Shown here: positions 13,781 through 43,059 of the stretch, piece after piece
How positions within the stretch are numbered: the first letter of the stretch is position 1
Layout: each line of letters starts with the position of its first letter
From: a virus
Length of the DNA stretch: 45,491 nucleotides
Virus record (IMG/VR): IMGVR_UViG_3300047089_000287
Coordinates: 1-45,491 of that record
Strand: one strand, 5' to 3'
Position numbers and translations under genes: made by a program
Notes under the pieces: model-generated
What the model saw: only the letters and a program-made list of their open reading frames with translations
What the model was told of the DNA's origin: nothing
Databases searched by the model: none

Positions 13781-13786
13781 GGTGCC

Positions 13787-20271: not shown

Positions 20272-21279
20272 CTAGTCTTCGCTCGCCCAGGGGTCTTCCA
20301 TGTTGTTCTGGAGGGACAGGAGCGCCTGCGCGCCGGTCATCGCGGCCCGGGGCTTGGCCCGCGTGGGCGCCTGCGGGATCTTCCGCTGGCCGTTGTCGGA
20401 GCGCTTGAAGAACTCCACGCCGCGCCCGGACTGGAGCATCGAGCGGACCTCATCGGGGTCGCCCTGCACCCAGGTGGCCAGCGATTCGATGGCCCCGTTG
20501 AGCGCGCGGGCGCCGGACGTCGCATCCGGGTACGCCGGGTCGAGAACCGGCGCCACGTCCACGAGCTGGACGTCCAGCAGGGTCCGCATCGGGTAGTTGA
20601 ACTCGCTCAGGCCCCACTCGTCGCCGCCGGGGTAGACGCGGAAGGCGAACGAGCTGTGCCGGACGTCGCCCCGGGTCACGTACTCCAGCACGTCGGCCCG
20701 CGCGTTCGGGGGCTGCACCTCGTAGACCAGGCCGGTCTCGTCGGTAGCCAGCCGGAGCGTCCGGGCGTGCGTGGTGCCGAGCAGCCAGTCGTCCTTGTGG
20801 TTGTACCTGCACACCACGTCCGGCCAGCCATCGGCCTTGGCCGAGTTGAATGCCGACCGGTTGACCTGCTCCACGAACCCGCCCAGCTTCCGCGACAGCT
20901 TCTCGTAGCAGGCCGCGTAGCCGTAGATCAGCGACGGGCCGTGCTCCTGGGTGCGGATCTCGGGCGGGAACCGGGTGAACCGGCGCTCCGGCCAGCCCTC
21001 CAGGTTCACCTCCATGCCGAGCGCGGCCCGCTGGTCCCCGGTCACGTTGATCTTGAACTTGCGGGCCGCCTGGAGGATCTTGGGCATGGCCGACTTGCCG
21101 TGCGGGCTGTCCGGTGCCCGTGACAGGGCGTTCCGGGTGTGTGCCTCGTCGTGAACAGGAAAGTGACGCTTGCCTCTCGGCGTCGTCTTGCCCATCTGGT
21201 CCTTGGTGCCGCCCGGCTCGATATATGCGAACGCACTATCGGGCAGATCGTTGATGGCGGCAGTGGTTAGTTCAGCCAT
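20272..21279 (-). CDS. Prohead protease (HK97/S78 type) with N-terminal DUF6582-like domain
   Basis: A 335-aa protein. Residues 15-78 (FAYIEPGGTKDQMGK and RGKRHFPVHDEAHTRNAL) resemble a small DUF6582 domain. Residues about 85-250 form the protease: EGWPERRFTRFPPEIR, a YNHKDDWLLGTT block with catalytic His 161, and DVRHSSFAF with the candidate nucleophile Ser 209 or 210. A C-terminal tail of about 60 residues follows. The protease trims the capsid delta domain and scaffolding. Start: ATG at 21279 with GGAAGG about 10 nt upstream. The gap of 102 nt to the capsid gene is the longest inside the head module. Confidence 0.88.
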   Translation of the reverse strand: MAELTTAAINDLPDSAFAYIEPGGTKDQMGKTTPRGKRHFPVHDEAHTRNALSRAPDSPHGKSAMPKILQAARKFKINVTGDQRAALGMEVNLEGWPERRFTRFPPEIRTQEHGPSLIYGYAACYEKLSRKLGGFVEQVNRSAFNSAKADGWPDVVCRYNHKDDWLLGTTHARTLRLATDETGLVYEVQPPNARADVLEYVTRGDVRHSSFAFRVYPGGDEWGLSEFNYPMRTLLDVQLVDVAPVLDPAYPDATSGARALNGAIESLATWVQGDPDEVRSMLQSGRGVEFFKRSDNGQRKIPQAPTRAKPRAAMTGAQALLSLQNNMEDPWASED

Positions 21280-25084: not shown

Positions 25085-26836
25085 CTACGCGCCGGTCATC
25101 CAGTTCCCGCCCTGGCTGTGGCCCGGCCCGGCCACCGACCGCACCGGGTCGTAGTTCCGGCGCTTCTTGTCCAGCGCCCACAGGGCGTCGGTCGCGCTGG
25201 TGATGGGAGTGATGTCGGACTCGCTGTCGCGGCGGCTCCAGGCTTTGCCGCCGTCCCCGACGTCGCGGGTCTCGGCCGAGGCGACCGAGGCCCACAGGCC
25301 CGGGGCGTGCTCGCGGCCGAGGTGGATGAGCCCGCCGTTGCGGCCCTTGCGGACGGTGGTCACCATGAGGCTGAACGCGGCGGCCTCCTCCGCGCTGGTC
25401 ATCCAGGTGATGTCCAGGCCCGCCGCCGCCGCCTCGCCCGCCAGCCCGGACGCCGGGCCGTTCTTCGGCGCGATGATGGTCAGGGGCCGCCACCTGCGGC
25501 GCAGGTCGACCAGCTTGGGGATGACCCAGGCGGTGCCCTCGCGGGAGCAGCCGCGCGGGATCTCCACCACCGGGCGGGGCAGCTCCAGTGCCCGGCGGTC
25601 GCCGGGCCGCTCCCAGCACGCGGAGATCGTCGCGGAGATCATGTCCGGGTCGACGTCGAAGGCGAAGCACACAGGCCGGGTGGCGCCGCCGGGCTCGGGC
25701 ATGGCGCAGTTCTGCCAGTGCTCCTCGGACACCACGGCCCAGGCGGCGTCCTCGGACGGCCAGTCACCGACGCCCAGCACCTCGCGGTCGAAGGCCGTCA
25801 TCGACATCGCGGCCATTTCCTGGGCGACATGCTGGACGCTGATCCGGGTGCCGAGCGCGGGGTTGGCCCTGGCCCAGGAGCGCGGGTCGTCCCGGTCGTC
25901 GTGCCGGGTGCAGACGACGTACCGGTTGGTCTTCCGGCCGTTCACCTCGTCCCGGTGGCACATGTCGTTGTGCGGGGTGATCGACCACTCCGCGCCCATG
26001 ATCATGGGGTCCTTGCGGAGCACCCGGCGGCGGACGGCGCCGAGCTGGACGGAATCCTGGAGGCCCGCGCTGGCAGTGTAGATCACCTGCGGGTTGGCCA
26101 CGGCGGACAGGGTGGGCAGCGAGGCGCCCACCACCTCGTCGGACAGGATCATGGCCTCGTCGTAGACCACCAGGTCGGCGGTGAACGACCGGCCGGAGCC
26201 CCGGCTGCGGGCCAGGAACCGGAGGCGGGCGGCTACCTGACGGCGGATGCGGCGGCCCTCCGACCCGAAGATGAGGGTGGGGGCGGCCCGCAGCTCGATG
26301 GCCTCGTCACCGTGGGACGTGGTGACCGACTTGACCCGGCGGCGCAGGTCGTCGTAATTGACAACGACGTCCCTCACCCGGCGGAAATGCTCAGCCGCCG
26401 CCTTAAATTCATGGGCGGTATGGATTATCATCTTATCGCCAAGAATGAACATCCCGGCAAGTTCCCGCACCTCAAGCGCCTGGTTCTTGCCATTCTGGCG
26501 GCTCACCATAAGGTAATTCTCAAATGCCGCCCAGCGGCCGTCAGGTTTTACCCCGCATGACTCCGTTAGCCACCAGGACTGCCACTCGTCCAGGTCGTAG
26601 CCGTACTCGCCGGCCCATTCGAGCAGGTCGGCGGACTGGTAGTCGCCGCAGCCGGTGCCGGGGTAGCCGGGCTGGGCGCAGACCGGGCACTGCGGGTCCT
26701 TGACCCGGTGCCTCGGCGGGGACGTCCAGAACCGTGGCTGCTGGGTGCCGTAGAGCTTGCCGCCGCCGGGGGTCCCGCCCCGGACCACCGTGCCGTCCGG
26801 CAGCCAGACGTCGGGGACGACAGTGAGCTGGGTCAT
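25085..26836 (-). CDS. Terminase large subunit
   Basis: A 583-aa protein. The N-terminus holds a possible zinc knuckle (CPVCAQPGYPGTGC, residues 50-63). The ATPase has Walker A VSRQNGKNQ (111-119), the motor-like HTAHEFKAAAEHF segment and Walker B ADLVVYDEAM (220-229). The nuclease half carries FAFDVDPDMISATI and a C-terminal SATDALWAL. The enzyme cuts concatemeric DNA and pumps it through the portal. Residues 92-147, across Walker A, are coded by clearly more AT-rich codons than the rest. The ATG has only a weak ribosome-binding site. Confidence 0.93.
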   Translation of the reverse strand: MTQLTVVPDVWLPDGTVVRGGTPGGGKLYGTQQPRFWTSPPRHRVKDPQCPVCAQPGYPGTGCGDYQSADLLEWAGEYGYDLDEWQSWWLTESCGVKPDGRWAAFENYLMVSRQNGKNQALEVRELAGMFILGDKMIIHTAHEFKAAAEHFRRVRDVVVNYDDLRRRVKSVTTSHGDEAIELRAAPTLIFGSEGRRIRRQVAARLRFLARSRGSGRSFTADLVVYDEAMILSDEVVGASLPTLSAVANPQVIYTASAGLQDSVQLGAVRRRVLRKDPMIMGAEWSITPHNDMCHRDEVNGRKTNRYVVCTRHDDRDDPRSWARANPALGTRISVQHVAQEMAAMSMTAFDREVLGVGDWPSEDAAWAVVSEEHWQNCAMPEPGGATRPVCFAFDVDPDMISATISACWERPGDRRALELPRPVVEIPRGCSREGTAWVIPKLVDLRRRWRPLTIIAPKNGPASGLAGEAAAAGLDITWMTSAEEAAAFSLMVTTVRKGRNGGLIHLGREHAPGLWASVASAETRDVGDGGKAWSRRDSESDITPITSATDALWALDKKRRNYDPVRSVAGPGHSQGGNWMTGA

Positions 26837-29862: not shown

Positions 29863-30057
29863 ATGGCCGCACCGCGCCCTGTTGCCGTCGTATGGATGGA
29901 CGGCCGGGTGGAGGTCTACGACAACGCCGAAACCGGCCTGTCCAACGGCGTGCTGCATATCCACCAGCGCGCCGGGATCGGCAGCGCGGTCCAGGCTGAG
30001 CATCACATCCCGATCTGCAACGTCCGGGAGTACTACCCGGCCGACCAGGAGGACTGA
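29863..30057 (+). CDS. Small hypothetical protein
   Basis: A 64-aa product: MAAPRPVAVVWMDGRVEVYD, then VLHIHQRAGIGSAVQAEHHI and a NVREYYPADQED end. It is a compact beta-type fold with several His. A strong AGGAGGAG site lies 5 nt before the ATG. The stop overlaps the next start (TGATG). Confidence 0.65.
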   Translation: MAAPRPVAVVWMDGRVEVYDNAETGLSNGVLHIHQRAGIGSAVQAEHHIPICNVREYYPADQED

Positions 30058-31076
30058 TGCGGACCTGCCGGTGCGGCCATCCCCGTGCGGATCACGGGCA
30101 CTACCGGTCCGGGACCGACTGCTGGTGCGGGTGCCTGCGGTACTCCCGGCGGTGGTGGCCGTGGAACTGGTCCCGGGCGTGGTTAGCCGGTGGAGGGCTA
30201 CTGCTGGACGTGCGGCGCTTACCAGGACGGCATCAGGCCCGGGTTCGCCATGTGCGGGGGCTGCGTGAGCGCCTGGACCGGGGCGCGGGCCGTCCCGCCG
30301 CCCGGGTACGCCGAGGTCACCCTGGACGGCTGCTGCGGTGCGGGCGGCGCGGCTCACGGCCTGGCGAAGGCCGGGCACTACGTCATCGGGGTCGACACGA
30401 ACCCGGGGGTCCGGGACGCCTACCTCCGGTCCGGGGCGCACGAATTTGCCTGCGCGTCCATCCTGGATGTCCTTTCGGACAAGTCGTTCATGGCCGGGAT
30501 CACGTTCACCTGGAACAGCCCGCCGTGCCAGCATTTCAGCCGGATGTGCAACTGCCGCCCGGAGCTGCGGGAACTGAGGCTCCCAGACGGGTCTCTCAAG
30601 TACCCGGACCTGATCACCCCGTCGCGCCCGCTGCTGGACGCCTGGGGCGGCCCGTGGGCGATGGAGAACGTGTACGGCGCGAGGGACTGGATGAAGTCCC
30701 CGGTCTGCCTGTGCATGCACGGCCACTTCGGCCGCGACTTCTACCGGCACCGGCTGGTGGAGGCCGGCGGGGGTCTTACGCTGGCCTCCCCGCCGCCGGC
30801 CTCCGCCAGCCCCCCGGAGGGCGGTTCCAGGGTACGGGTCAACCGCGAGTGCGGCTGCGTGCACCCCGTCGCGGCGGCCAAGGCCGGCCACTGGAAGCCG
30901 GGGAAATTCGTATCGGTGGCCGGGCACGAGCGCAAGGAACCCGTCCGCCGGGTGATGGAGATAGACGAGCGGTGGATGCCGAGGCGCGAGGACGTGTCCG
31001 AGGCCATCCCGTGGTACATGGCCTACGAGGTCGCGGTGCAGCTCGCCGCCTGGCGGGCCGAGTAGCCCGCCCGTAA
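30057..31076 (+). CDS. Zinc-cluster ORF without its own stop
   Basis: The first 45 residues look genuine: MRTCRCGHPRADHGHYRSG, TDCWCGCLRYS, then a basic Trp-rich RRWWPWNWSRAW. C-x-C-x2-H and C-x-C-x-C suggest zinc binding. It is coupled to the gene upstream by TGATG. From 30190 on, the frame overlaps the DNA methyltransferase in another frame with no stop until 31074-31076, giving 339 aa of unlikely sequence. Either the original stop was lost, the two are fused by frameshifting, or the overlap is tolerated. The real 3' end is probably near 30190. Confidence 0.4.
   Translation: MRTCRCGHPRADHGHYRSGTDCWCGCLRYSRRWWPWNWSRAWLAGGGLLLDVRRLPGRHQARVRHVRGLRERLDRGAGRPAARVRRGHPGRLLRCGRRGSRPGEGRALRHRGRHEPGGPGRLPPVRGARICLRVHPGCPFGQVVHGRDHVHLEQPAVPAFQPDVQLPPGAAGTEAPRRVSQVPGPDHPVAPAAGRLGRPVGDGERVRREGLDEVPGLPVHARPLRPRLLPAPAGGGRRGSYAGLPAAGLRQPPGGRFQGTGQPRVRLRAPRRGGQGRPLEAGEIRIGGRARAQGTRPPGDGDRRAVDAEARGRVRGHPVVHGLRGRGAARRLAGRVARP
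30190..31065 (+). CDS. C5-cytosine DNA methyltransferase
   Basis: A 291-aa protein. An N-terminal zinc-type region (CWTCGAYQDG, MCGGC) precedes motif I LDGCCGAGGAAHGLA. Motif IV is NSPPCQHFSR, with the catalytic Cys in PCQ, and motif VI is MENVYG. The C-terminal motif X-like part is AIPWYMAYEVAVQLAAW. Such enzymes transfer a methyl group from SAM to cytosine C5, here perhaps protecting phage DNA from host restriction. The usual FCGAGG is CCGAGG. The start is a GTG at 30190, directly after an in-frame TAG. No companion nuclease gene is adjacent, so it is probably an orphan. Confidence 0.88.
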   Translation: MEGYCWTCGAYQDGIRPGFAMCGGCVSAWTGARAVPPPGYAEVTLDGCCGAGGAAHGLAKAGHYVIGVDTNPGVRDAYLRSGAHEFACASILDVLSDKSFMAGITFTWNSPPCQHFSRMCNCRPELRELRLPDGSLKYPDLITPSRPLLDAWGGPWAMENVYGARDWMKSPVCLCMHGHFGRDFYRHRLVEAGGGLTLASPPPASASPPEGGSRVRVNRECGCVHPVAAAKAGHWKPGKFVSVAGHERKEPVRRVMEIDERWMPRREDVSEAIPWYMAYEVAVQLAAWRAE

Positions 31077-32612: not shown

Positions 32613-33308
32613 CTATCCGAGTGCCCAGGCGGCGCGCACCAGCCGGAGGATGCTCCAGCGGCGGCGCAGGACAACCCGGGTGATGTCGGCGGCTACCAGC
32701 AGCCGCTCCCTGGTCCGGGCTTCCGGCCGGTACCAGATGTAGCCGTTGCGCTCGCGCCAGTAGTTCAGCTTGATCTCGTTGTGCTCGTCGCACAGCAGGC
32801 CGAGGTTGAACAGGGTGGTCCGGCCGCCGGCCTTCCAGGGCTGCCCGTGGTCGACGTGCACCCGGCGGGGCGTGACCTTGCCGTCCAGGTTCACCCGGGG
32901 CGGCAGCAGGTCCAGCTCGGCAGCGGTGATCCCGCAGTACAGGCACCGGTTCCGGTCCATGGCCGCGACGACCCGGCGCAGCCCGGCGCTGATGTACGCG
33001 GACTTGCACCGCGCCCGGTCGTGGTGCTTCCGGTGCCTGATCCGCCACTGCCGGAACGGGCCGCCGATGATGATGGCGGGCAGGCAGAACAGGACGAACA
33101 CCACCAGCGCCGGGATTATGACCAGCCCGGCGGCGGCCATGGCCGCGAGCCCGGCCCAGTGCAGCGGCTCGCCCAGGTACAGCCAGCCGCCGAGCGGGGC
33201 CAGCACGCCGGGGCCGAAAGTGAAGGACCGGGACAGCGCGTAGTTCCGGTACCGGCGGCGCCTCCGGGCCGGGCGGCGGGCAGCCGGCCTGCGGGCCACG
33301 ATGCTCAT
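32613..33308 (-). CDS. Membrane-anchored HNH endonuclease
   Basis: A 231-aa protein. The N-terminus is very basic (RRPAARRPARRRRRYRNY). Two membrane helices follow at about residues 45-85 (LHWAGLAAMAAAGLVIIP and VVFVLFCLPAIIIG). The cytoplasmic HNH domain has RCLYCGI, RRVHVDHGQPWKAGG and LLCDEHNEIK, giving Cys-Cys, D-H and H-N zinc/nuclease residues. HNH enzymes nick or cut DNA. Membrane anchoring is unusual and could place the nuclease at the site of DNA entry or exit near the FtsK/Tra pump. Start overlaps the upstream stop (ATGA). Confidence 0.82.
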   Translation of the reverse strand: MSIVARRPAARRPARRRRRYRNYALSRSFTFGPGVLAPLGGWLYLGEPLHWAGLAAMAAAGLVIIPALVVFVLFCLPAIIIGGPFRQWRIRHRKHHDRARCKSAYISAGLRRVVAAMDRNRCLYCGITAAELDLLPPRVNLDGKVTPRRVHVDHGQPWKAGGRTTLFNLGLLCDEHNEIKLNYWRERNGYIWYRPEARTRERLLVAADITRVVLRRRWSILRLVRAAWALG

Positions 33309-33518: not shown

Positions 33519-33968
33519 TCAGCCCGCCTTCCAGGCGACCACCACGAGGTCGACGGGGGCGTCCTGGTACGGGTCCAGGGCCTCTTGCAGGTCCGGCAGT
33601 TTCAGGCCGCCGAGCCCGCAGCCGATCAGCGGCATGGCGACCTCGCGGATCTTGAAATCGTGGTAAGCCTCGGTGATCATCCGGCCCACGGCGGCAGCGA
33701 TCATCCAGGGCCGCGCGGACGCGCCCGGGTCGGGCTGGGTGGCCAGGTTGAACACCATCCCGCCCGGGTGCTGCCACGGCATGACGTCGCCCGGGATGAG
33801 CCCGCCCCGCCTGGCGCACCGCTTCCGGTACGACTCGTACATGAGCGGCCACCGGTTCCGGAACTGGACGGCGATCCCGGCTCCCATGACGCCTTTGCAG
33901 TTGACCCCGTGGGCGAGGGCGGGGATCCCGCAGCCGAACAGGTCTCCCTCGGTCCAGGTGATCATCAT
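33519..33968 (-). CDS. Macro-domain protein
   Basis: A 149-aa single macro domain. WTEGDLFGCGIPALAHGVNC at the N-terminus, then KGVMGAGIAVQFRNRWP (the ADP-ribose-binding loop), VFNLATQPDPG, and AMPLIGCGLGGLKLPDL for the second loop. These residues match the ADP-ribose-1''-phosphatase/Poa1-like branch. It binds ADP-ribose or related nucleotides. In a phage it might recycle NAD breakdown products or reverse host ADP-ribosylation. The start is the first of two ATGs (33968) after GGGAGG. Confidence 0.85.
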   Translation of the reverse strand: MMITWTEGDLFGCGIPALAHGVNCKGVMGAGIAVQFRNRWPLMYESYRKRCARRGGLIPGDVMPWQHPGGMVFNLATQPDPGASARPWMIAAAVGRMITEAYHDFKIREVAMPLIGCGLGGLKLPDLQEALDPYQDAPVDLVVVAWKAG

Positions 33969-34380: not shown

Positions 34381-34564
34381 CGCGCACCTCCGGGTCAGCG
34401 GGCCACTCGGCAAGCTCGGCCGGGTGCACCGGCCTGCCGCCCCGCTCGCTGTGCAGCTTTCCGTTCAGGTAGACCGTGTAGGCCACGTCGGCCGGGAGGC
34501 CCTGTCCGAGGGCGCGGTCGGCGTACCGGGCCTCGGCCGGGCTGGTGGTGCTGACGATGATCAT
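34370..34564 (-). CDS. Small hypothetical protein
   Basis: A 64-aa product (MIIVSTTSPAEARYADRAL) with a beta-alpha start and an acidic, Pro-rich end (HPAELAEWPADPEVRD). Coupled to the upstream gene by TGATG. No family is recognised. Confidence 0.6.
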   Translation of the reverse strand: MIIVSTTSPAEARYADRALGQGLPADVAYTVYLNGKLHSERGGRPVHPAELAEWPADPEVRDAS

Positions 34565-34896
34565 CAGGGCTTCCCCTTAGCTCGCTCGATCTCGTTCTTG
34601 ATGCGCTCGTGCGCGGCCGGGTCGATGATCCGCAGGGCGAGGCGGGGGTGGGACTTCCGGCCGCCGCAGCACCAGCAGTTCCCGAACGGCCGGCGGAACC
34701 AGCCGCCCCCGCCGAGCCTGGAGTGCTCGTCGCCGCTGCCGGTGCAGACCCGGCACGGGACCCGCTGGTGGCGCTTCACGTCGCGGACGTAGTACAGGAC
34801 GGCCGCGAGGACGCCCGGCACCACCCCGAACATGCCGAGGTGCAGCAGGGCGCCGGCCGCGATGGATACCCCGGCGAAGATGCCGATGAGGATCAT
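34564..34896 (-). CDS. Membrane protein with DnaJ-like zinc motif
   Basis: A 110-aa product. Two short membrane helices (ILIGIFAGVSIAAGALLHLG and VVPGVLAAVLYYV) precede a cytoplasmic Cys-rich part. That part has CRVCTGSGDEH and CWCCGGRKSHP, like half of a DnaJ-type C-x2-C-x-G-x-G zinc module. The end is a charged helix (HERIKNEIERAKGK). Possibly an assembly factor for the membrane transfer proteins nearby. Confidence 0.62.
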   Translation of the reverse strand: MILIGIFAGVSIAAGALLHLGMFGVVPGVLAAVLYYVRDVKRHQRVPCRVCTGSGDEHSRLGGGGWFRRPFGNCWCCGGRKSHPRLALRIIDPAAHERIKNEIERAKGKP

Positions 34897-34911
34897 GGCC
34901 AGGCCCGCCGG

Positions 34912-35043
34912 TCATCCGCTGTGGGGTAGCGCGCCGGAGATGAACGTGCCAACGTTGTGCACGTCCGTCGCAGCCGTGTGCGGGTTGTTGATCACCCATA
35001 CCAGAAGAATGGCGATGAACACCCAGAAGAAGAACTGCTTCAC
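34912..35043 (-). CDS. Small single-pass membrane protein
   Basis: A 43-aa product: MKQFFFWVFIAILLVWVINN, then PHTAATDVHNVGTFISG. It matches the layout of short membrane peptides I know from Streptomyces genomes and mobile elements. GGGAGG lies 5 nt before the GTG, the same GGAGGTAACC site used by other genes of this module. Confidence 0.65.
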   Translation of the reverse strand: MKQFFFWVFIAILLVWVINNPHTAATDVHNVGTFISGALPHSG

Positions 35044-35045
35044 GG

Positions 35046-35378
35046 TTACCTCCCTCGCCTGGGCAGGCGAGCCCTGATGGACCTTGCTACGACCGTGCTT
35101 CCTGCCAGGGCGGTGCAGGCGGTCATGGTGACGCCGGGGGACAGGTTCCAGGCCACCCCTGCCAGGACCCCGGCGGCCAGGATGGCGGCGCTCATGGCTA
35201 TCTTGCGCGGCCGGGTCAGGTCGTGCCACCACCGGCTGTGCTCCGTGGGCGGCGGCGGCGGTTCCTGCCGGATCCGTGCCAGCAGGGTGCGGTGCCAGCC
35301 GTGGCCGGCGAACCCGTGCCAGCAGGCGGCTGAGACGGCCAGCAGGGCGGCGGCCAGGACGGACGGGGTGTAGGTCAC
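35046..35378 (-). CDS. Membrane protein
   Basis: A 110-aa product with three hydrophobic segments (VLAAALLAVSAACWHGFAG, IAMSAAILAAGVLAGVAW and MTACTALAGSTVVA) and a basic end (RARLPRRGR). A Pro-rich cytoplasmic loop (PPPPPTEHSRWWHD) lies in between. The GTG overlaps the upstream stop (GTGA). Spd-type membrane proteins are similar in style, not provably in family. Confidence 0.6.
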   Translation of the reverse strand: MTYTPSVLAAALLAVSAACWHGFAGHGWHRTLLARIRQEPPPPPTEHSRWWHDLTRPRKIAMSAAILAAGVLAGVAWNLSPGVTMTACTALAGSTVVARSIRARLPRRGR

Positions 35379-35806
35379 TTCGGCACCTCCTGCCTGGTCT
35401 CCGGCACCCGCTCAGGCTCCGCATCGGCGGGCAGGCGCCGTCCGGGATAGACGGCCGGGGCGAGGTCGGGATCGCGGTGCGGAGGCTCGGGAGCCGTCTC
35501 CTCCGGCTGCTCCGGCTCCGGGGCCAGGTCGATCTCCTCGCGGCGCCGGGCGGCCGGGACGGGGGTGCCGGAGACCGCGCGGGCGGTGAGGACGAGGACG
35601 AGGTACGCGGCGAGCACGGCCAGGGCGGCGCCGGCCAGCCGGGCTACCCGGACGGCCTCCCGGGCTGCCTGGCCGAGGCCGGCCTGGTGCAGCCGGAGCC
35701 AGGGCACCACGACGACCACGACGACGAATACCGCGATGCCGCCCGCTATCAGGGCGGGGTTGCAGCCGAGCTGCGTGCTGGAGCGCCGCATCCACCTGGT
35801 GATCAC
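35375..35806 (-). CDS. Membrane protein with acidic tail
   Basis: A 143-aa product from a GTG (MITRWMRRSSTQLGCNPAL). Two membrane helices (IAGGIAVFVVVVVVVPWL and LAGAALAVLAAYLVLVLTA) are followed by a cytoplasmic, Glu/Pro-rich tail (EEIDLAPEPEQPEETAPEPP). The start overlaps the stop of the FtsK/Tra gene (GTGA), so the two are made together, suggesting a partner of the pump. Confidence 0.62.
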   Translation of the reverse strand: MITRWMRRSSTQLGCNPALIAGGIAVFVVVVVVVPWLRLHQAGLGQAAREAVRVARLAGAALAVLAAYLVLVLTARAVSGTPVPAARRREEIDLAPEPEQPEETAPEPPHRDPDLAPAVYPGRRLPADAEPERVPETRQEVPK

Positions 35807-37935
35807 CAGTCCTCCTCGGGGTCTGCCGGGCTGTCGTCGGCCAGCAGGTCGGCATCGCCCGCCTGCCTGATCCAGATCCAGCGGGCATAAGGGTCGTTCT
35901 TGGCCCGGCCGTGCCGCCGGACCCGGCCCAGCTCCTCGTCGTCGCGGAGCCATTCGTGCAGGGTGTTGCGGTGCACTTTCAGGTCCGGGTTGCCGGTGGC
36001 GGCGGCGTCGGCGGCCAGCGTCTTGCACAGGGTGCCCACGGTCAGGCCGTGCTTCCCGGCCTGGAACAGCAGCTCGCGCATCCGGTTCCGGGCCGGGTGG
36101 GTCTTCCCGTGCGGGTCGTCGGGATCGGGCAGCCGGGCCACGATGTCCCGCCAGGCGGCGTCCAGGTCGTCGTCGCGGCCCCCGCCCCCGCCGTCGTCAC
36201 GCCCGCCGCCCCCGGCGTCGCCTCCGGCGGGCGGCCGGTCCATGACCGAGACCGGGCGGCGGCCCGGCTCCGGGGCGCCCGGGTCGTCGTGGATTCCGGC
36301 CTCGGCCTTCCAGGCGTCCGCCGACCGGCGCCACAGGTCCGTCTTGTCCTTCATGCGTTCCCAGCGGGTCGCGTAGGCTTCCCCGAGCGCGGCTTCCAGG
36401 TACGGGTCGGGGGCCGGGCGGTGGGGGCCGGTGCGCCTGGCGATGTAGTAGGCCAGCTTGGGCGTGATCCGGTAGAAGTGGACCGGCGGGGAGATCTTGC
36501 CCTTGAGCAGGGTCAGCCCGGCGCCGTCGTCCTGGATCTTGGCCAGCAGCTTGGCGGCGGCGTGGTCGTCGGGGAACACCGAGTCGCCGTCGCCGGACTG
36601 GCTGACCCGCAGGCCGATCCGGCAGAGGGCCTGGGCCTTGATGGCGGTCAGGCCCATGGTCTCCACGTCGCCCCGGACGGCGGCCAGGACGGGGACGAAC
36701 GCCTCGGACCGGTAGGTCTCGGCCAGCCGGGCCACGAGCACGGCCAGGTCGCGGCTGCTGATCCCGTCGTCCTTGCGGCCGTGGCCGGTGGCGACGGCGG
36801 TCTCGTCCATGATCAGGACGATCGAGGGGAGGTTCCGCCGGGGGGTGATCTTCTCGCCGCCCGCGCCCTGCTCGGCCCGCGCCTCGCCGGCCGCGATCAT
36901 CGTCTCCAGCATCAGCTTGGCCTCGGGACGGGTGGTGGCCACCCAGTCGAGAACCGGGCGCCGCACGCCGTCCGGGTCCTCCACCCAGGGCATGATCCAG
37001 GGCCGGGCCATCCGGCCGCCCTTGAGGTCGATGCAGAACATCACGACGTCATCGCACCGGGCGAGCTGGCCGATGAACACGTTGAGCAGGTTGGACTTGC
37101 CGGACCCGATGACGCCGACGATCATCACGGCGATCTCGCGGAGCAGCAGCCGGAACGGGCGGCCGTTGTCGTGCAGGCCGAGTTCCAGCGGCTCGTTGAC
37201 CGTGGTCCACTTCGCGTTCTCGGGCAGGAAGGCGATGGTGCGCTTCCCCTTGCGGGTGCGCAGGTGCAGGATGAACGCGGCCACGTTGTCCGGGTCGGGC
37301 TGCTCGAAATGGGCGGCGTCCCCGGCCAGCCGCAGGTCGGTGGCCAGCTCCGGGCCGATGTCCTTGAGCCGGTCGAAGGTGACGACGCCGTGCTCGTCGG
37401 TGGCCTTGCCGAGCAGGCCGTGCACCTGGATGCCGTTCGCGTGCCTGGTCACCTCGGTGATCCGCAGGCCCTTGATGCCGAGCTGGGCGAACTTGGTGAC
37501 CCAGCGCTCCATCTCGCGCTGCCTCCGGGCGCGCTCCTCGGCCTCGGCGTCCCGGCTGCCCAGCGCCCGGTAGTTGGCGATGACGGGCGGGCCGAACGGG
37601 GTGAGGATGACGAACCCGAGCACCAGGGCGGACAGGATGCCGGACGACCACGCGCCCAGCATCCGGGCGGCGGTGAACCAGCTCGTCAGGAACAGGCCCC
37701 AGGCGAGCAGCCAGCCGGCCAGGCCGCCGGCCCCGGTGATCCGCAGGGTGACCCACCAGACGACGCCGGAGAGCACGCCGAGGATGCCGCTCATCTGCCA
37801 CAGCGGCACGGAGCGCGGCAGGACCCAGGCGGCGGCCACGACGGCGGCCGTGACGATGACGGACGTCTCGATGACGTGCCACCAAAGGTCGCGGCCGACC
37901 GGGACGGGCTTGCGCTCAGGACTCGGGTCGTGCAT
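35803..37935 (-). CDS. FtsK/Tra-like DNA translocase
   Basis: A 710-aa membrane ATPase. Four membrane helices lie at about residues 22-118. A beta-rich linker (FAQLGIKGLRITEVTRHANG) follows. Walker A is GVIGSGKSN (274-282), Walker B is SIVLIMDE (371-378), and a GDVETMGLTAIKAQALCRIG helix and the sensor SVFPDDHAA follow. The C-terminal 110 residues contain a Gly/Asp-rich linker and a winged-helix-like end (MRELLFQAGKHGLTVGTLC). Actinobacterial Tra proteins of this type move double-stranded plasmid DNA between mycelia; FtsK does so at septa. A phage copy upstream of terminase is unusual. It overlaps the upstream gene by 20 nt. Confidence 0.85.
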   Translation of the reverse strand: MHDPSPERKPVPVGRDLWWHVIETSVIVTAAVVAAAWVLPRSVPLWQMSGILGVLSGVVWWVTLRITGAGGLAGWLLAWGLFLTSWFTAARMLGAWSSGILSALVLGFVILTPFGPPVIANYRALGSRDAEAEERARRQREMERWVTKFAQLGIKGLRITEVTRHANGIQVHGLLGKATDEHGVVTFDRLKDIGPELATDLRLAGDAAHFEQPDPDNVAAFILHLRTRKGKRTIAFLPENAKWTTVNEPLELGLHDNGRPFRLLLREIAVMIVGVIGSGKSNLLNVFIGQLARCDDVVMFCIDLKGGRMARPWIMPWVEDPDGVRRPVLDWVATTRPEAKLMLETMIAAGEARAEQGAGGEKITPRRNLPSIVLIMDETAVATGHGRKDDGISSRDLAVLVARLAETYRSEAFVPVLAAVRGDVETMGLTAIKAQALCRIGLRVSQSGDGDSVFPDDHAAAKLLAKIQDDGAGLTLLKGKISPPVHFYRITPKLAYYIARRTGPHRPAPDPYLEAALGEAYATRWERMKDKTDLWRRSADAWKAEAGIHDDPGAPEPGRRPVSVMDRPPAGGDAGGGGRDDGGGGGRDDDLDAAWRDIVARLPDPDDPHGKTHPARNRMRELLFQAGKHGLTVGTLCKTLAADAAATGNPDLKVHRNTLHEWLRDDEELGRVRRHGRAKNDPYARWIWIRQAGDADLLADDSPADPEEDW

Positions 37936-38227
37936 CGTCCCTCCTCTCCGGTTCGGTAGCCTGGCGCATCAGGTCGCGGAACAGCTCGGCCATCTGGGCG
38001 TCCCGCGCCGGGACGTCGGCCTTCGCGGCCGGGCCGTAGTCGTCGGCCAGGTCGGCCAGCAGGTAGCGGGGCGTGTTCCCGCACCCGACGCACACGGACG
38101 GGGCGACGGTGAGGGCCAGGCGGCCGTCCCGGGCGATGCACGGCGACATGTCTGACCTAGCCCACGGGCAGCCCACGTACCCGGGGTCGTCGTCGTACCG
38201 GCCGAAACCAGCCGGACCTTTCACCAT
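37916..38227 (-). CDS. Small Cys-containing protein upstream of the translocase
   Basis: A 103-aa product (MVKGPAGFGRYDDDPGY). VGCPWARSDMSPC and VCVGCGNTP provide four Cys, probably zinc-binding. The helical C-terminus is highly charged. GGGAG lies 7 nt before the ATG at 38227. It overlaps the FtsK/Tra gene, so it is probably part of the same function. Confidence 0.62.
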   Translation of the reverse strand: MVKGPAGFGRYDDDPGYVGCPWARSDMSPCIARDGRLALTVAPSVCVGCGNTPRYLLADLADDYGPAAKADVPARDAQMAELFRDLMRQATEPERRDDARPES

Positions 38228-38246
38228 CACCGTCTCCCGTTCCTTC

Positions 38247-38510
38247 TCAGCCCCGCAGGACGCCGCCGCCGATGACTTCCTGGAGCTGGTCCGCGCTGCC
38301 GGACAGCGTGCCCGCCGCCTCGTTCACCGCTTCCCGGTACTCCGGCTTGATCGCGGTCTCCTCCAGGCTGTCGCCCACCCGCTGGAGCCGTTCCTGGGCC
38401 GCAGTGATGATCTCGTGCAGGTACATGAGGATCTGGTGCAGCTCCTCGGCGTCATCCCATTCGACGCTGAGGTCCCGGATCTGCTCCGCGACCTGCTGTG
38501 ATGTTGCCAT
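38247..38510 (-). CDS. Small coiled-coil protein nested in the Arg-rich ORF
   Basis: An 87-aa product (MATSQQVAEQIRDLSVEW). It is acidic and almost wholly helical with heptad-like spacing (ELHQILMYLHEIITAAQERL). It has its own AGGAGGTAACC site 3 nt before the ATG, identical in core to sites of neighbouring genes. The reading frame is continuous with the Arg-rich protein upstream, so it can be made alone or as the tail of that protein. Confidence 0.65.
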   Translation of the reverse strand: MATSQQVAEQIRDLSVEWDDAEELHQILMYLHEIITAAQERLQRVGDSLEETAIKPEYREAVNEAAGTLSGSADQLQEVIGGGVLRG

Positions 38511-40112
38511 CTGGTTACCTCCTGTGCGATGTCCGTTATTACGGTTCCCGGCCGGCCAGGACGGCGCGGGCCGCCTGCCCGGTCCGGGGCTCTGCGGCCG
38601 GGGCACGACCGGCGGGGCCATGGGCGGCTTGCGGCGCGGGAACATCTTCCGCATGAAGCGCGACCGCCGCCAGTGATCGAACCGGCTGACCTGGGGCTGC
38701 CAGTTGCTGCCCCGGGGCGCCCACGGCTTCGGCGGGCGGCGGCGCGACCGGCGCCACCTGCGCCACGCCCGGAGCGGGTTCATCCGGCGGCGCCATCCCC
38801 GCATCCGGGTCCGCAGCCGGCGGCGGCCAGGGCGGCCGAGGCCCGGGTGCCTGCCGCGCCAGATGTTGACCCGGCGCCGGAGCCGCGCGGCCAGGCTGAG
38901 CCGCTTCCCGCGCGACCGCCAGACCGGGGTGAAGTGCCCGCGCCACGGGGTGAACCAGTGCCGTCGCCTCGGGAAGGCCCGGTTCACCCTGGCCCGCCAC
39001 TGCCGCATCCTGGACCGGTGCGCGCGGCGGGCCGCCCGGCGGGCCGGGGTCGCGCGGCGCCACCTGGACCACCTGGTCCTGATCCGGCTGGCCGGACCCC
39101 GGCGGCCACGGAACGGGGCATACCAGCGGCGCGGCCGGCTAGGTGAGCCATGACGCCACCTGCGCCACCCGGACCGGACCCGGCGGCGGGGCAGCGGGGC
39201 TCCGGTCGGCCGCCTGCTCGTCCTCGGGCGGCGCCATCCGAACGGGCGGCGGCGCGGGTGCCCGGACCCGGCGTGGCGGCGGCGCCAGCGGAGCACGGAC
39301 CACCAGCCGCGAGAGCGCGGGCCGCCCCCGCCGCCTGTGCCCGTGGTGCGGCGGCGGCGGAACGGGGTGAACCGCCTGCGTGATCGCGGGCCGCCGCCAG
39401 TCCCGGTGCCCGGCCGGAACCGGCGGCGGCCGGCCGGGGTCCTGGGGCTGCTTCGCCGGGTTCCACGGGGACGCCCGGATGCCCCGCGAGACCGGCGGAA
39501 AGTCCCCGAACCCCGGCGAAGGCCCCGGGAACTCCCGGAACCTCGCCGTGAACCCGCGCGAGACCGGCCGGAACCGGCCAGGCCCCTGCGCGAGCGGCCT
39601 GAACCGGTCCCGCTGCGCTTCCGGCTGCCGAGCCGGGGGGAGAGGGAGCGGGACCGGCTGCCTGTGCCGGGAGAGCGGCGGCGCGACGTGCCGCTCCCCC
39701 GGCGGCCGGAACCGGAGCCACGGCGGCCGGAACCGCCGCTGCCCCGTCCCCGGAGCAGGCTGCCGCCCCGGCCACTGCTACCGGGGCGGCGGAACATGCC
39801 GCTGCCGCCGCGACGTCCGCCTGAGCCGGGCGACCGGAACGAAGCGCTCCGGGTCCGCTGCCGGAACTGGCGCCGCCCGAACGGGTGGAAGTGCCGCATC
39901 AGGTGCGGATAGAAAACCAGCACCGCGAGCGCCGCGACGGCCAGGCCGGCGATGATCCAGACCCGGGTCGCGCTGCCGTGCATGGAGTGGGTGACGGCGG
40001 CCAGGCCCCCGGCCAGCAGCAGCAGGACCATGATCCGCCGCCGCCACCCGATCCGGCCGCCTGGCGAGGACGGGGATTCCAGGGTCTCGGCGTCAGGCCC
40101 GGTCTCGGACAT
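38247..40112 (-). CDS. Membrane-anchored Arg-rich protein (621-aa frame)
   Basis: Residues 1-26 are cytoplasmic, two membrane helices lie at about 27-45 and 52-68 (IMVLLLLAGGLAAVTH, VWIIAGLAVAALAVLVFYP). Then come about 450 residues with Arg, Gly, Ser and Trp dominating: an RGS-type repeat zone, then an RRW/WRR zone. The last 87 residues are the acidic coiled-coil part described separately. The net charge is extremely positive, so DNA or RNA binding at the membrane is likely. The ATG overlaps the upstream stop by 20 nt. The repeat zone could partly be a compositional artefact, but the helices and coupling support a real gene. Confidence 0.6.
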   Translation of the reverse strand: MSETGPDAETLESPSSPGGRIGWRRRIMVLLLLAGGLAAVTHSMHGSATRVWIIAGLAVAALAVLVFYPHLMRHFHPFGRRQFRQRTRSASFRSPGSGGRRGGSGMFRRPGSSGRGGSLLRGRGSGGSGRRGSGSGRRGSGTSRRRSPGTGSRSRSLSPRLGSRKRSGTGSGRSRRGLAGSGRSRAGSRRGSGSSRGLRRGSGTFRRSRGASGRPRGTRRSSPRTPAGRRRFRPGTGTGGGPRSRRRFTPFRRRRTTGTGGGGGPRSRGWWSVLRWRRRHAGSGHPRRRPFGWRRPRTSRRPTGAPLPRRRVRSGWRRWRHGSPSRPRRWYAPFRGRRGPASRIRTRWSRWRRATPARRAARRAHRSRMRQWRARVNRAFPRRRHWFTPWRGHFTPVWRSRGKRLSLAARLRRRVNIWRGRHPGLGRPGRRRLRTRMRGWRRRMNPLRAWRRWRRSRRRPPKPWAPRGSNWQPQVSRFDHWRRSRFMRKMFPRRKPPMAPPVVPRPQSPGPGRRPAPSWPAGNRNNGHRTGGNQMATSQQVAEQIRDLSVEWDDAEELHQILMYLHEIITAAQERLQRVGDSLEETAIKPEYREAVNEAAGTLSGSADQLQEVIGGGVLRG

Positions 40113-41076
40113 CCCGGCCGTCCATTCCTGCCGCTGCCTTCTCCAGTACCCGCCTGGCGGTCCTGCGGCGGGTCATCTCCGAGGCGCCCGCGCCCAGGAT
40201 CTCGTGGCCGGCCAGCGTGCCGGCGAGCCTGCGCTGGCCCGGGAGCCGCCCGCCCGACGCGATCAGCTCGCGGACCAGCGCGGCCTCGGCTTCGGTCCGG
40301 GCCGCCGTCAGTCCCCTTCCCCGGGCCTTGGCGCGGCCTTCGGCAGCGGCGGCTTCCGGTCGCGGCTCCCGGGGTCGGGGATCTGACGGCGGCGTCTTGC
40401 GGGCAGTGGCCTTGCGGTCCGGGGCGGGCTCGTCCGGGTAGACGAGCTGGATGGCCTCGGCCGGCCGGTTCTCGCCCTTCCAGGTCGCGGCCCGCGTGAC
40501 GCGGACGCACCGGTAGGCGTGCCAGAACCAGCGGGTGATGCCGAGCCGGACGGCGTGGTCCTCGATCAGGTTCCTGGCCTTGAGGAGCGGCCGGCTGACC
40601 CGGCGCGAGTAGGCGGACCACAGCCACGGCGAGATCACGCTCATCATGCCGAACGTGACGGCCGCGACGGTGGGGCGCCAGCCGGGCTTGCAGTAGTGGC
40701 TGTAGTTCAGCACGCCGATCACCAGGGCGACGCTGTAGGCGGACAGCCGGAGCCGGAGCGCGGAATCGTCCGCGACGAGGGCGAGGTTGGCGAGCCAGGC
40801 GAGGTAGATCGCGATGGACTCCAGCGCGATGGCGACCAGGATGGCGTCACCGGGGCTGAGGTGGGCCTGCCAGAACCGGAGCTGGGCTCGGAAGGCCACG
40901 TAGTTGACGATGACGACGGGCACGGCGGCCAGCCAGGCACGGTGCGCGCGGCCGTGGCCGGTGCCCGTTCCGATCAGCCGGAAGTTCTCGAAGGCGGCGC
41001 CGAGGGCGAGCAGCGCGGCCGTGGCGATCTCGGTCCTGCGGTCTTTCCGCAGGTCGGATGCTGTCCTATCATTCAC
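40093..41076 (-). CDS. DUF2637/SpdB-like membrane protein
   Basis: A 327-aa protein. Four membrane helices lie in residues 15-165 (AWLAAVPVVIVNYVAFRAQ, ILVAIALESIAIYLAWLANL, LRLSAYSVALVIGVLNYSHY and VTFGMMSVISPWLWSAYSR). The cytoplasmic part ends in a helical TARTEAEAALVRELIASGG and QRRLAGTLAGHE region like a winged helix. DUF2637 proteins accompany Tra in Streptomyces plasmids and integrative elements and are linked to intramycelial spread. The GTG at 41076 has GGAG 9 nt upstream. Confidence 0.68.
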   Translation of the reverse strand: MNDRTASDLRKDRRTEIATAALLALGAAFENFRLIGTGTGHGRAHRAWLAAVPVVIVNYVAFRAQLRFWQAHLSPGDAILVAIALESIAIYLAWLANLALVADDSALRLRLSAYSVALVIGVLNYSHYCKPGWRPTVAAVTFGMMSVISPWLWSAYSRRVSRPLLKARNLIEDHAVRLGITRWFWHAYRCVRVTRAATWKGENRPAEAIQLVYPDEPAPDRKATARKTPPSDPRPREPRPEAAAAEGRAKARGRGLTAARTEAEAALVRELIASGGRLPGQRRLAGTLAGHEILGAGASEMTRRRTARRVLEKAAAGMDGRDVRDRA

Positions 41077-41112
41077 GGGTCCGGTCTCCGTTTCCGGGCG
41101 GGGCCGGTCATA

Positions 41113-41176
41113 GGGAGTGCGGCCCGGTGACGCGGACCGCACTCCCGCTAGCTGACCAAGAGGGTACCACTAGGGG
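41113..41176 (-). promoter_or_regulatory. Promoter and leader hairpin of the transfer module
   Basis: A TACCCT -10-like hexamer lies at about 41163-41168 on the minus strand. About 17 nt downstream a perfect 10-bp stem forms (41113-41122 with 41137-41146, 14-nt loop). The hairpin lies in the untranslated leader of the gene at 41076. It has no T-run and could be a regulatory or mRNA-stabilising element. Confidence 0.45.
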
Positions 41177-41190
41177 CAGTTAGAGTCTTC

Positions 41191-41286
41191 TTACCGATCT
41201 CGCAGCGGCGCGTCACCGGCCGCCTGACCTGCACCGAGACCGGTTATCTCGTAGGTGAGCTGAACACTGTCGCCGTCGTCTGCCAC
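41191..41286 (-). CDS. Very small ORF
   Basis: A 31-aa product from a GTG (MADDGDSVQLTYEITGLGAG), 1 nt after the stop of the next small gene (TGACGTG). It is acidic at the start and basic at the end. Coding support is the coupling and codon use. Confidence 0.45.
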   Translation of the reverse strand: MADDGDSVQLTYEITGLGAGQAAGDAPLRDR

Positions 41287-41287
41287 G

Positions 41288-41425
41288 TCAGGCCGCGCTG
41301 AGCCGCTGGTCCACGGGGCAGGCGGTGAGGACCGAGGCGTACAGGCCGCCCGTGTGGCTCACCTTCCCGCTGGCCATGTGGCTCGCGTCGCAGTCGCTCT
41401 CGCCGTTCGGGTTTACCTGGATCAT
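41288..41425 (-). CDS. Small Cys/His-containing peptide
   Basis: A 45-aa product (MIQVNPNGESDCDASHMASG) with two Cys and three His; the rest is KVSHTGGLYASVLTACPV. GGGAG lies 8 nt before the ATG. It sits between the RyR-domain gene and the 31-aa ORF. Confidence 0.55.
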   Translation of the reverse strand: MIQVNPNGESDCDASHMASGKVSHTGGLYASVLTACPVDQRLSAA

Positions 41426-41470
41426 CTCTGTCTCCCTGGCCTTGGTTCACCTGGCGGTGATGAAGGTGGT

Positions 41471-41848
41471 TCAGTCCTCCAGCGTCAGCGTGACGACGGC
41501 GCTGACGAACATCCGCACCTTGTCCCGCTGGAACTGGTTCATGTCGTCGTACTGGATCAGGTCCGGGTGGGTTCGTGCCGTCCGGTCCTTCGGGCCTCTG
41601 GTCCAGCCGAGCGCGGTCATGGCCCTGACCCACTCGGCCTGGTGGTGACGGTAGCTGGCGCCGCGCTGGACGCGGAGCACGCCGTCGATGGTGACCTGCT
41701 TGTACTCCTCCGGCCAGCTCGCCCAGGGTTCGGCCGGGGCGACATCTGGCGTCCCGTTCCGCTCCTGGAGGCGCTGGAGCGCGATGGTCTGGTCATGGCA
41801 GTACTCCGCGATCTCCTCGGCGCTGTACCGGCTCGTTCCCCTTCTCAT
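41471..41848 (-). CDS. RyR-domain protein
   Basis: A 125-aa protein. The first half has YSAEEIAEYCHDQTIALQRL and PWASWPEEYKQVTIDGV. The second half has the RyR-like signature: YRHHQAEWVRAMTALGWTRG, THPDLIQYDDMNQFQRDKV, ending MFVSAVV. This two-part arrangement is common in phage RyR-domain proteins; the domain is thought to bind ligands or nucleotides, with no phage function firmly known. The ATG at 41848 has GGAG 9 nt upstream; a TTG at 41953 would lengthen it. Confidence 0.8.
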   Translation of the reverse strand: MRRGTSRYSAEEIAEYCHDQTIALQRLQERNGTPDVAPAEPWASWPEEYKQVTIDGVLRVQRGASYRHHQAEWVRAMTALGWTRGPKDRTARTHPDLIQYDDMNQFQRDKVRMFVSAVVTLTLED

Positions 41849-42352
41849 CTCCCTGTTCTCCGTGATCCTGTCCCCCGGCTCCCCTGGCAGAGACGTCTTG
41901 TGATACGCCGTAGGACCCCGGTTTGTTCCCGGAGCCTCGGTGATTTTCTGCAACCAGGACCGCAGATGCGCAGATGAGGGTGGTCGGACGACGAGCCCTC
42001 GACTTCGTTTCCCCTGTCCACGGACTTGCCCGGTACCAATCCGGTGCCCGTGACATCAGGCCGGCCGTCCCGGGAATCCTAGCGCGGGGTGCCGCCCTGC
42101 TGCCGCCGAACTGCAATCCCCGCTCGTCGGGGCGCCGGGCAGAGGTGCAGCCCGGGGTGCCGCCGAGGTGCCGCCCTAGTGCAGTCCGCCCTGGCCAGCG
42201 GCCTGGCGACACTTCGGCCAGGGCGACAATGGCACTTCCCCGGTCATTGCTGTCTCCGGGTATATCGTCACGCGATGCAATTCCGGTCGCGGGATAATCA
42301 TCCGCGCGGCTAATCCCGCGTGCACGCTGTCGTGTCGTGTCACGACGTAAAA
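41849..42352. other. Gene-poor control region
   Basis: About 500 nt with no convincing gene. It holds a GC-rich inverted repeat (CCCTGGCC 42189-42196 with GGCCAGGG 42216-42223) and a lone TCGTGTCACGA palindrome at 42335-42345 related to the array at 42638. The promoter of the leftward RyR/transfer operon should lie here, but I cannot place it. Confidence 0.4.
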
Positions 42353-42386
42353 CGGGGGCTCTCGAATATCGAATCGAAAACCCCCG
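42353..42386 (-). terminator. Intrinsic terminator-like hairpin
   Basis: On the minus strand CGGGGG (42386-42381) pairs with CCCCCG (42358-42353), followed by TTTTA. The 22-nt AT-rich loop contains a smaller TCGA repeat. It lies about 30 nt behind the stop of the minus ORF at 42415. Confidence 0.5.
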
Positions 42387-42414
42387 GTTCGTGACCATTC
42401 CGTGACCAGGCCGG

Positions 42415-42663
42415 TTACCGGCCGTGGTCACTGGTCACATCGTGCGACCGTACAACATCCGAGATCGGCTCCATATTCCCGCAGGTCATAGACCTATTTT
42501 CGGAAACGCATTCGAGAAAATAGCAGTCGTGGAAAATCTTGTTCGGGGAGAAATCCGGGCAGCGGGCATCCCCCCAGGTAGTGCCCAAAAAATCGAACAT
42601 TTGTTCAGCGAACAAGCTATCGAATTTTTCAGGAGTGTCGTGCCACGATAGGTACTGCGCCAT
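42415..42663 (-). CDS. Possible small protein in an AT-rich island
   Basis: An 82-aa frame (MAQYLSWHDTPEKFDSLFAE) rich in Phe, Cys, Asp and His, with GC3 far below the genome level. A terminator-like hairpin follows its stop. A plus-strand frame over 42424-42651 (75 aa) is equally plausible by composition (FGNAFEKIAVVENLVRGEIR). Only one can be the main gene. Either way, the low GC marks recent acquisition or strong regulatory constraint. Confidence 0.35.
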   Translation of the reverse strand: MAQYLSWHDTPEKFDSLFAEQMFDFLGTTWGDARCPDFSPNKIFHDCYFLECVSENRSMTCGNMEPISDVVRSHDVTSDHGR

Positions 42664-42889
42664 ATCGTGGCACGACATAACCGCGTGACCTGGCCATATC
42701 GTGGCACGACACATCACCTCGGCAGTCCCTGTGTCGTGGCACGACAGATCAGCAGTCCCTATGTCGCAGTACGACACATCACCTCGGCAGTCACTGTGTC
42801 GTGGCACGACAGATCAGCAGTCCCTAGACCGTGGCAGTCCCTGCCTATCGCAGCACGACAGACTGAACGTTCAGTAAGTCGCATCACGA
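42638..42889. repeat. Array of eight TCGTGGCACGA-type palindromes
   Basis: Copies at 42638, 42665, 42699, 42734, 42764, 42799, 42848 and 42879, each 11 bp of the form TCGnnnnACGA, are spaced 27-49 bp apart. Four (at 42665, 42699, 42734, 42799) are identical TCGTGGCACGA; the others vary in the middle. A ninth copy lies at 42335. Copies lie in a longer repeat of 50 bp (42711-42760 and 42776-42825, one mismatch, 65-bp period). Such arrays serve as replication iterons, partition sites or repressor operators. Confidence 0.75.
42862..42875. promoter_or_regulatory. 14-bp perfect palindrome
   Basis: ACTGAACGTTCAGT has the size and symmetry of a TetR-family operator. A further 10-bp palindrome (ACTGATCAGT) lies at 42897-42906, just upstream of the tandem-repeat ORF. 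Confidence 0.5.
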
Positions 42890-42915
42890 CATAGGTACTG
42901 ATCAGTCATGTGACC

Positions 42916-43059
42916 ATGCCTCACCATCACGAGCCTGGCCACCATCACGAGCCTGGCCACCATCACGAGCCTGGCCACCATCACGAGCCTGGCCACCATG
43001 CCGAGTGCTGGCCACCATGCCGAGTGCTGGCCATTCCTAATCGGACATACCGGACATAG
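42916..43059 (+). CDS. Possible His-rich repeat peptide
   Basis: A 47-aa frame: MPHHHEPG, then three further HHHEPG units, then HHAECWPPCRV and a short basic end. The 18-bp DNA repeat unit keeps frame, giving a 6-residue HHHEPG unit that could bind metal. No good ribosome-binding site is seen, so the DNA repeat itself may be what is selected. Confidence 0.3.
   Translation: MPHHHEPGHHHEPGHHHEPGHHHEPGHHAECWPPCRVLAIPNRTYRT
42923..43032. repeat. 18-bp tandem repeat, four plus two units
   Basis: Four perfect 18-bp units of ACCATCACGAGCCTGGCC (42923-42994) are followed by two 19-bp variants ACCATGCCGAGTGCTGGCC (42995-43032). The array adjoins the palindrome array. Confidence 0.85.

Follow-up and report, generated by a model that had tools for sequence, protein, structure and literature searches.

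Gene content of the window

The window, i.e. the whole stretch of DNA analyzed here, is an entire linear IMG/VR fragment of 45,491 bp with no host genome behind it. Between 41076 and 34564, it carries a compact minus-strand operon that encodes, from 41.1 kb downwards, a 327-aa membrane protein, proteins of 621 and 104 aa, a 710-aa FtsK-like ATPase and four small membrane proteins, with overlaps of 4-20 bp between several of the adjoining genes. The principal genes are listed below (G numbers denote related contigs).

41471-41848, minus strand: protein resembling RyR domains, located upstream of the module (PHROG 5154 E 1.6e-13; Pfam RyR E 8e-5, short of the cut-off)
40093-41076, minus strand: four-helix membrane protein of the DUF2637 type, 327 aa, with a further helical region at the C terminus (start set to match G001)
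38247-40112, minus strand: membrane-anchored Arg/Gly-rich middle protein, 621 aa (conserved ORF, composition)
37916-38230, minus strand: 104-aa Cys-containing protein (87% identical in G001; similar small gene at the equivalent position in G017)
35803-37935, minus strand: FtsK/Tra-type DNA translocase, 710 aa (N-terminal TM helices, RecA-like motor, C-terminal winged-helix-like domain)
35375-35806, minus strand: small membrane protein (4-bp overlap with the FtsK stop codon; 50% identical in G001)
35046-35378, minus strand: small membrane protein (homologues in G001, G012, G010, G011 and G007)
34912-35043, minus strand: 43-aa single-pass membrane peptide (ORF; 38-54-aa lookalikes at the equivalent position in G012, G017 and G010)
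34564-34896, minus strand: small membrane protein (homologues in G001, G012 and G010)
32613-33308, minus strand: HNH endonuclease (Pfam HNH E 1e-4, just above the cut-off; present in all relatives compared)
25085-26836, minus strand: terminase large subunit, TerL (PHROG 9 E 4e-54; relatives in 1285 phage records)
21313-22956, minus strand: portal protein (Pfam Phage_portal E 5e-48)
20272-21279, minus strand: prohead protease S78 (Pfam E 3e-27)
18910-20181, minus strand: HK97-type major capsid protein (Pfam Phage_capsid E 6.5e-56; 88-95% identical in relatives)

The first-pass annotation had described an overlapping minus-strand run of an ATPase, a four-helix protein, an Arg-rich protein and small transmembrane proteins, and this run is borne out, with the small transmembrane ORFs present at 34564-35806. 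The naming of the terminase large subunit, portal, protease and capsid genes on the module strand likewise agrees with Pfam and PHROG; these genes follow one another in this order about 9 kb below the module, the arrangement of an HK97-type tailed phage. The gene taken for a probable small terminase has no family support, and the placement of the module inside the late region has to be revised: the late genes lie downstream of the module, beyond about 9 kb that hold small genes and a block on the plus strand (29896-31065). Because this block stands between them, the module and the head genes are probably not a single operon.

Elsewhere in the window, a macro-domain protein is encoded at 33519-33965 (PHROG 335 'phosphatase', E 8e-33), and a methyltransferase-like gene at 30190-31065 (plus strand), within the minus-strand block, is kept in G001, G007, G011 and G012. 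A sugar-nucleotide block (2885-3871 and 6074-14773), consisting of epimerase, UDP-glucose dehydrogenase, C-methyltransferase and glycosyltransferase genes, is largely kept in G001. The glycosyl hydrolase family 5 gene (4414-5571, plus strand; cellulase-like, E 1e-29), 77% identical in G001, is adjoined by a tRNA-Arg at 4197-4269. Long plus-strand ORFs opposite FtsK were discarded as GC-rich mirror frames, and a tRNA-Ile called inside FtsK on the opposite strand as spurious, the only tRNA in Rfam being the one at 4197.

The FtsK/Tra-type ATPase

The ATPase scores above the Pfam cut-off for FtsK_SpoIIIE (PF01580; E = 2.3e-7, 30.9-33.6 bits vs. a cut-off of 24), matches the PHROG 'FtsK/SpoIIIE-like' (E = 4e-44), and keeps the Walker A sequence GVIGSGKS and the DET motif in the alignment. 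A sequence search against solved structures gave no match. The AF2 model (mean pLDDT 77.6) has N-terminal helices at residues 15-120 and a winged-helix-like domain at 614-688, and a fold search of the PDB with this model gave as best matches the FtsK motor (E 4e-16) and TcpA, a coupling protein of conjugation (E 8e-15).

An hhalign profile built from 15 phage members aligned with plasmid TraB across 425 columns that take in the N-terminal region (E = 2e-18) and with pIJ101 Tra (E 2e-11); for E. coli FtsK, the alignment spanned 225 columns (E = 5e-10). The homology to Tra/TraB translocases extends beyond the motor, and the model shows N-terminal membrane helices and a C-terminal winged-helix-like domain; by sequence, the FtsK-like protein is a membrane-tethered RecA-type motor homologous to plasmid TraB. 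With NCBIfam plasmid_TraB, the window ATPase obtained 14.8 bits and the best phage relative tested 36.9 bits; since these scores are far below the equivalog cut-off of 800 bits, the ATPase is classified on its sequence as a TraB homologue, not as TraB proper. A packaging ATPase was considered and rejected, in view of the TraB profile match and the FtsK and TcpA fold matches.

In the maximum-likelihood tree, which was rooted only at the midpoint and has partly long outer branches, the window ATPase falls within a group of 13 ATPases from metagenomic phages (97/94). A separate plasmid FtsK group (100/99) also takes in pZL12, Keanu and P1312, and TraB, pIJ101 Tra and E. coli FtsK fall outside both groups. 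The Tra-like identity proposed at first pass is supported: the ATPase stands apart from chromosomal FtsK and has a DUF2637 neighbor as in actinobacterial plasmids. The phage ATPases form a clade of their own and do not nest within the plasmid or TraB groups.

The FtsK genes of three relatives, G007 (L036:1507-4713), G011 and G014 (L128:3354-6053), contain in-frame inserts located exactly in Walker A and ending ...VPTHN before Ser. By sequence, these inserts are inteins, with a LAGLIDADG domain in G007 and G011 and a mini form in G014; inteins in Walker A are typical of important ATPases. Downstream of FtsK, distinct small genes show similarity chiefly to the C-terminal winged-helix region of the ATPase (L036:6804-7220 and L038:11513-11929, with further lookalikes at L128:2707-3621 and at L129:2114-2596 and 2329-3546), and appear to be extra copies of the predicted DNA-recognition domain.

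The two membrane partners

The 327-aa protein (82%, 58% and 51% identical in G001, G012 and G010, respectively) aligned with DUF2637 (PF10935) domains in hhalign (97.7%, E = 2.2e-12, 112 columns) and was picked up by the DUF2637-domain HMM at E = 1.4e-8. When searched as a single sequence, it gave no match to Pfam DUF2637; its homologue in G028 exceeds the cut-off of that model. The AF2 model shows four long helices at residues 63-189, with low confidence (pTM 0.33). No similarity to pIJ101 SpdB was found (hhalign probability 0.1%). Thus, of the earlier description as a DUF2637/SpdB-like four-helix protein, the DUF2637 part stands at the profile level, where Pfam alone missed it, whereas homology to SpdB does not.

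The Arg-rich membrane-anchored protein, also noted at first pass, corresponds to the 621-aa ORF, which contains 153 Arg residues (33% Arg across residues 76-490) and has a net charge of +137. It consists of two N-terminal hydrophobic segments, an R/G/S linker of about 415 residues and a C-terminal helical domain of about 85 aa. Despite the low-complexity linker, the ORF is held open in G001, G012, G010 and G011 (621-748 aa), the short overlap with the upstream DUF2637 gene recurs in relatives, and substitutions between the window and G001 are commonest at third codon positions. Direct comparison of the C-terminal domain with its plasmid counterparts gave 78.6% (E = 1.7e-5), and plasmid-derived and phage-derived models each detect intermediate phages; the domain shows a weak but recurrent relationship to the pFQ12, pSQ10 and pZL12 middle proteins. 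Both the DUF2637 profile match and this domain provide the membrane proteins with plasmid relatives.

Conservation of the module among phage contigs

G001, which comes from another metagenome, covers nearly the whole window in unchanged order (TerL 88% and FtsK 76% identical). A terminase scan yielded more contigs, and the ATPase is present in those with enough upstream DNA (G007, G010, G011 and G012); a capsid scan yielded 65 contigs, among which G014 (210 kb) and G017 (164 kb) contain the full trio of FtsK, DUF2637 and middle protein genes. Altogether, FtsK lies upstream of the head genes in seven related contigs (G001, G007, G010, G011, G012, G014 and G017), most of them found independently via the terminase or the capsid, and was found in every relative with enough upstream DNA. 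Where measured in these contigs, it is located 16-30 kb upstream of the capsid gene. The FtsK-negative contigs G018 and G019 were not scored as absences because they end too near the capsid, extending only about 12-14 kb upstream of it, and G015, with 18.4 kb upstream of the capsid, was scored neither as presence nor as absence. A chimeric assembly was rejected, given that seven related contigs share the ATPase upstream of the head genes; the join of transfer-like and head genes, conserved across these contigs, is genuine.

A scan with the ATPase profile reached further soil phage contigs, mostly of 64-165 kb, most of which have the trio by profile. Five of these unrelated phages (L110, L112, L113, L114 and L120) have the trio in a rearranged form, with the ATPase gene in the opposite orientation and the three genes still together. 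A scan with the DUF2637 profile alone retrieved 31 viral contigs; within the fetched locus, 21 of these have an FtsK relative no more than about 8 kb away, and a middle protein is detectable in 13. Because no FtsK was seen nearby at the other 10 fetched loci, the association between DUF2637 and FtsK is strong without being invariable. Four more diverged DUF2637 loci (L158-L161) come from IMG/VR records numbered like isolate genomes, which might lead to a named host.

Comparison with plasmids and named phages

To spread through mycelia, Streptomyces-type plasmids rely on just one motor, Tra, together with Spd membrane proteins. The TraB/Tra proteins of Streptomyces conjugative plasmids and AICEs (pIJ101; TraB of an S. 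canus plasmid) are, like the window ATPase, membrane-bound FtsK/SpoIIIE translocases. The window ATPase differs from them in forming a separate deep branch, its partner genes are different, with no detectable SpdB of the pIJ101 type, and a clt site is only a candidate. The two membrane proteins of the window may be set beside SpdB2 of pSVH1 by analogy only, from the description of the latter as an oligomeric, DNA-binding integral membrane protein that partners TraB during spread within the mycelium (PMC4170104).

Closer counterparts of the gene arrangement are found in pFQ12 (Frankia) and pSQ10 (Nocardiopsis), in which a membrane protein, a middle protein of about 525-565 aa and FtsK are encoded in a single operon, the pFQ12 membrane protein scoring above the Pfam cut-off for DUF2637. 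Unlike the window, these are plasmids of 18-22 kb, with FtsK 25-30% identical to that of the window, and pFQ12 also has ParA. Streptomyces phages Keanu and Hiyaa and Thermobifida phage P1312 share with the window an annotated FtsK-like gene with a middle protein upstream (Keanu also has DUF2637), but they are different phages and their FtsK belongs to the plasmid clade.

In pZL12 (NC_013420; recorded as Streptomyces phage ZL12), a membrane protein (gp73), a large Gly-rich protein (gp72) and FtsK (gp71) are encoded on the same strand directly upstream of the phage late genes, as in the window. The C-terminal domain of plasmid middle proteins is present in gp72, and gp71 matches the FtsK profile; gp73 gave no detectable match to DUF2637, either by profile or in Pfam. 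Unlike the window family, pZL12 has ParA and ParB, and its FtsK, about 26% identical to that of the window, belongs to the plasmid clade. It is described as a plasmid-phage whose transfer needs tra and two adjacent genes (PMC3583192), and its phage-particle genes and ParA/ParB have been described as well (PMC4487206); presumably, gp71-73 are the three genes in question. The joining of a phage to a transfer module, to which the first-pass annotation drew attention, is therefore real but has a precedent.

By sequence, the combination of FtsK, DUF2637 and a membrane-anchored polycationic protein is also that of actinobacterial plasmids and pZL12, and the module genes are, on strong homology, real relatives of actinobacterial plasmid-transfer genes. 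In the literature searched, no paper was found that treats such phage genes as a Tra/Spd module. What appears to be new is a Tra-like transfer module in large phages that are apparently not plasmids, the pZL12 plasmid-phage with a similar trio being already known.

Intergenic repeats

A divergent intergenic region of 1.9 kb and low GC (0.53-0.58), at 41.9-43.9 kb, separates the module from the plus-strand genes and contains two groups of repeats.

42333-42891, no strand: cluster of about eight palindromes of the TGTCGTGNCACGACA type, in the low-GC divergent intergenic region
42922-43026, no strand: tandem repeat of four 18-bp units and two further variant units (repeat search)

The TGTCGTGNCACGACA-type pattern has 19 matches in the window, 14 of them in the 42333-42891 cluster, vs. 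5.4 expected (0/100 shuffles). The equivalent position in G012 has different repeats, namely, a 17-bp tandem and GAGTGCAG..CTGCACTC palindromes. Upstream of the module in G012 (80.0-83.1 kb, L031:1-3100), six copies of the palindrome GAGTGCAGNNCTGCACTC accompany the 17-bp tandem-repeat array, an arrangement that looks operator- or iteron-like. The window repeats could be a candidate transfer (clt-like) site, an origin, or an operator/repressor array.

Plasmid maintenance genes and host

No ParA, ParB_N, tyrosine integrase (PF00589) or serine recombinase (PF00239) was found in the five largest relatives (131, 140, 164, 190 and 210 kb), all of them incomplete contigs. As a positive control, the ParA and ParB models do match pZL12 and the 93-kb Streptomyces plasmid NZ_CP108353. 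AICEs combine integrase, Rep and Tra (PMC3218068), and the relatives, with neither PF00589 nor PF00239, fall outside this definition. The window is linear according to IMG/VR, and no replication gene was seen within it; G012 has no end repeat and encodes a DNA polymerase A of phage type together with an SNF2 helicase. In these incomplete contigs, the absence of par and integrase genes makes the phage-plasmid proposed at first pass less likely.

Since every relative from a named phage or plasmid record is actinobacterial and the GC content of the window is about 70%, the host is most probably a mycelial (thread-forming) actinobacterium. Two scans of genome contigs for a host, with the FtsK and capsid alignments, gave no match.

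Possible functions of the module

We propose that the operon is a Tra/Spd-like translocation module for double-stranded DNA, stable in large (130-210 kb) phages, that would most probably carry phage DNA through the septa or membranes of hosts growing as mycelia, a reading to which we give an even chance. The motor would grip phage DNA at a cis site through its winged helix, and the hexameric pump would dock on a membrane complex of the DUF2637 protein and the polycation. By analogy with SpdB2, these two membrane proteins might build a channel or serve as its gate, and also collect DNA. Double-stranded phage genomes could then be pumped by the hexamer over cross-walls into neighboring hyphal compartments or, less likely, into other mycelia, and the infection would subsequently spread within the mycelium without virions. 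Spread by DNA transfer besides virions is a plausible possibility.

A phage-plasmid of the pZL12 type, i.e. an extrachromosomal prophage made conjugative by Tra and spreading both as virions and by mycelial transfer, would account for the likeness to pZL12, a plasmid-phage with tra-dependent transfer and ParA/ParB in which a similar trio (gp73-72-71) occupies the same strand just upstream of the phage genes, and the window repeats could then be iterons. This is nonetheless rather improbable in our estimation, considering that the maintenance and recombination genes were not found in the five 131-210 kb relatives although the ParA and ParB models match pZL12 and NZ_CP108353, that G012 has a phage-type polymerase and an SNF2 helicase, and that the phage FtsK clade is apart from the one that holds pZL12 and pFQ12. 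Conservation in large phages without detected maintenance genes is also compatible with a motor that works inside the cell, with no transfer between compartments; at membranes or septa, it would anchor, sort or clear DNA of the phage or the host, or it would aid replication or packaging. An FtsK-like gene of a Streptomyces phage has previously been read as a replication gene and suggested to be used during replication (PMC11536984), and PHROGs places the family in the category 'moron, auxiliary metabolic gene and host takeover'. We consider an intracellular role of this kind unlikely, however, given that both partner membrane proteins and the charged linker are common to plasmid-transfer loci, that the phage has its own terminase, and that the ATPase profile is nearer to plasmid TraB than to cellular FtsK.

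Actinophage ftsK has also been read as a development gene and grouped with parB and ssgA among the genes that potentially manipulate host development (PMC10117723), so that a decoy FtsK-like protein altering septation or chromosome segregation is conceivable. The Walker motifs, the winged-helix-like domain and two dedicated membrane partners would all be superfluous for a decoy, which makes this explanation quite improbable. Even less credible is a role in exclusion or competition, in which the module would block the entry or transfer of rival phages or plasmids that use the same machinery; its position among small membrane proteins would fit, but a complete, intact motor is not what such a role would lead one to expect.

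Implications

For the question of how phages pass the cross-walls of multicellular bacteria, the trio conserved in several large soil phage lineages supplies a specific candidate, amenable to deletion, by which viral DNA might spread without virions, and the DUF2637 and middle proteins, both without known function, would gain a testable role. More broadly, several lineages of large, apparently non-plasmid actinophages might encode a double-stranded DNA transfer machine of their own, spread naked genomes between compartments of the mycelium by a route of infection independent of virions, and trade the module with conjugative plasmids, a generalization that we put forward tentatively and regard as possible but doubtful. 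If true, a transfer machine would be common to phages and conjugative plasmids beyond the phage-plasmid class.
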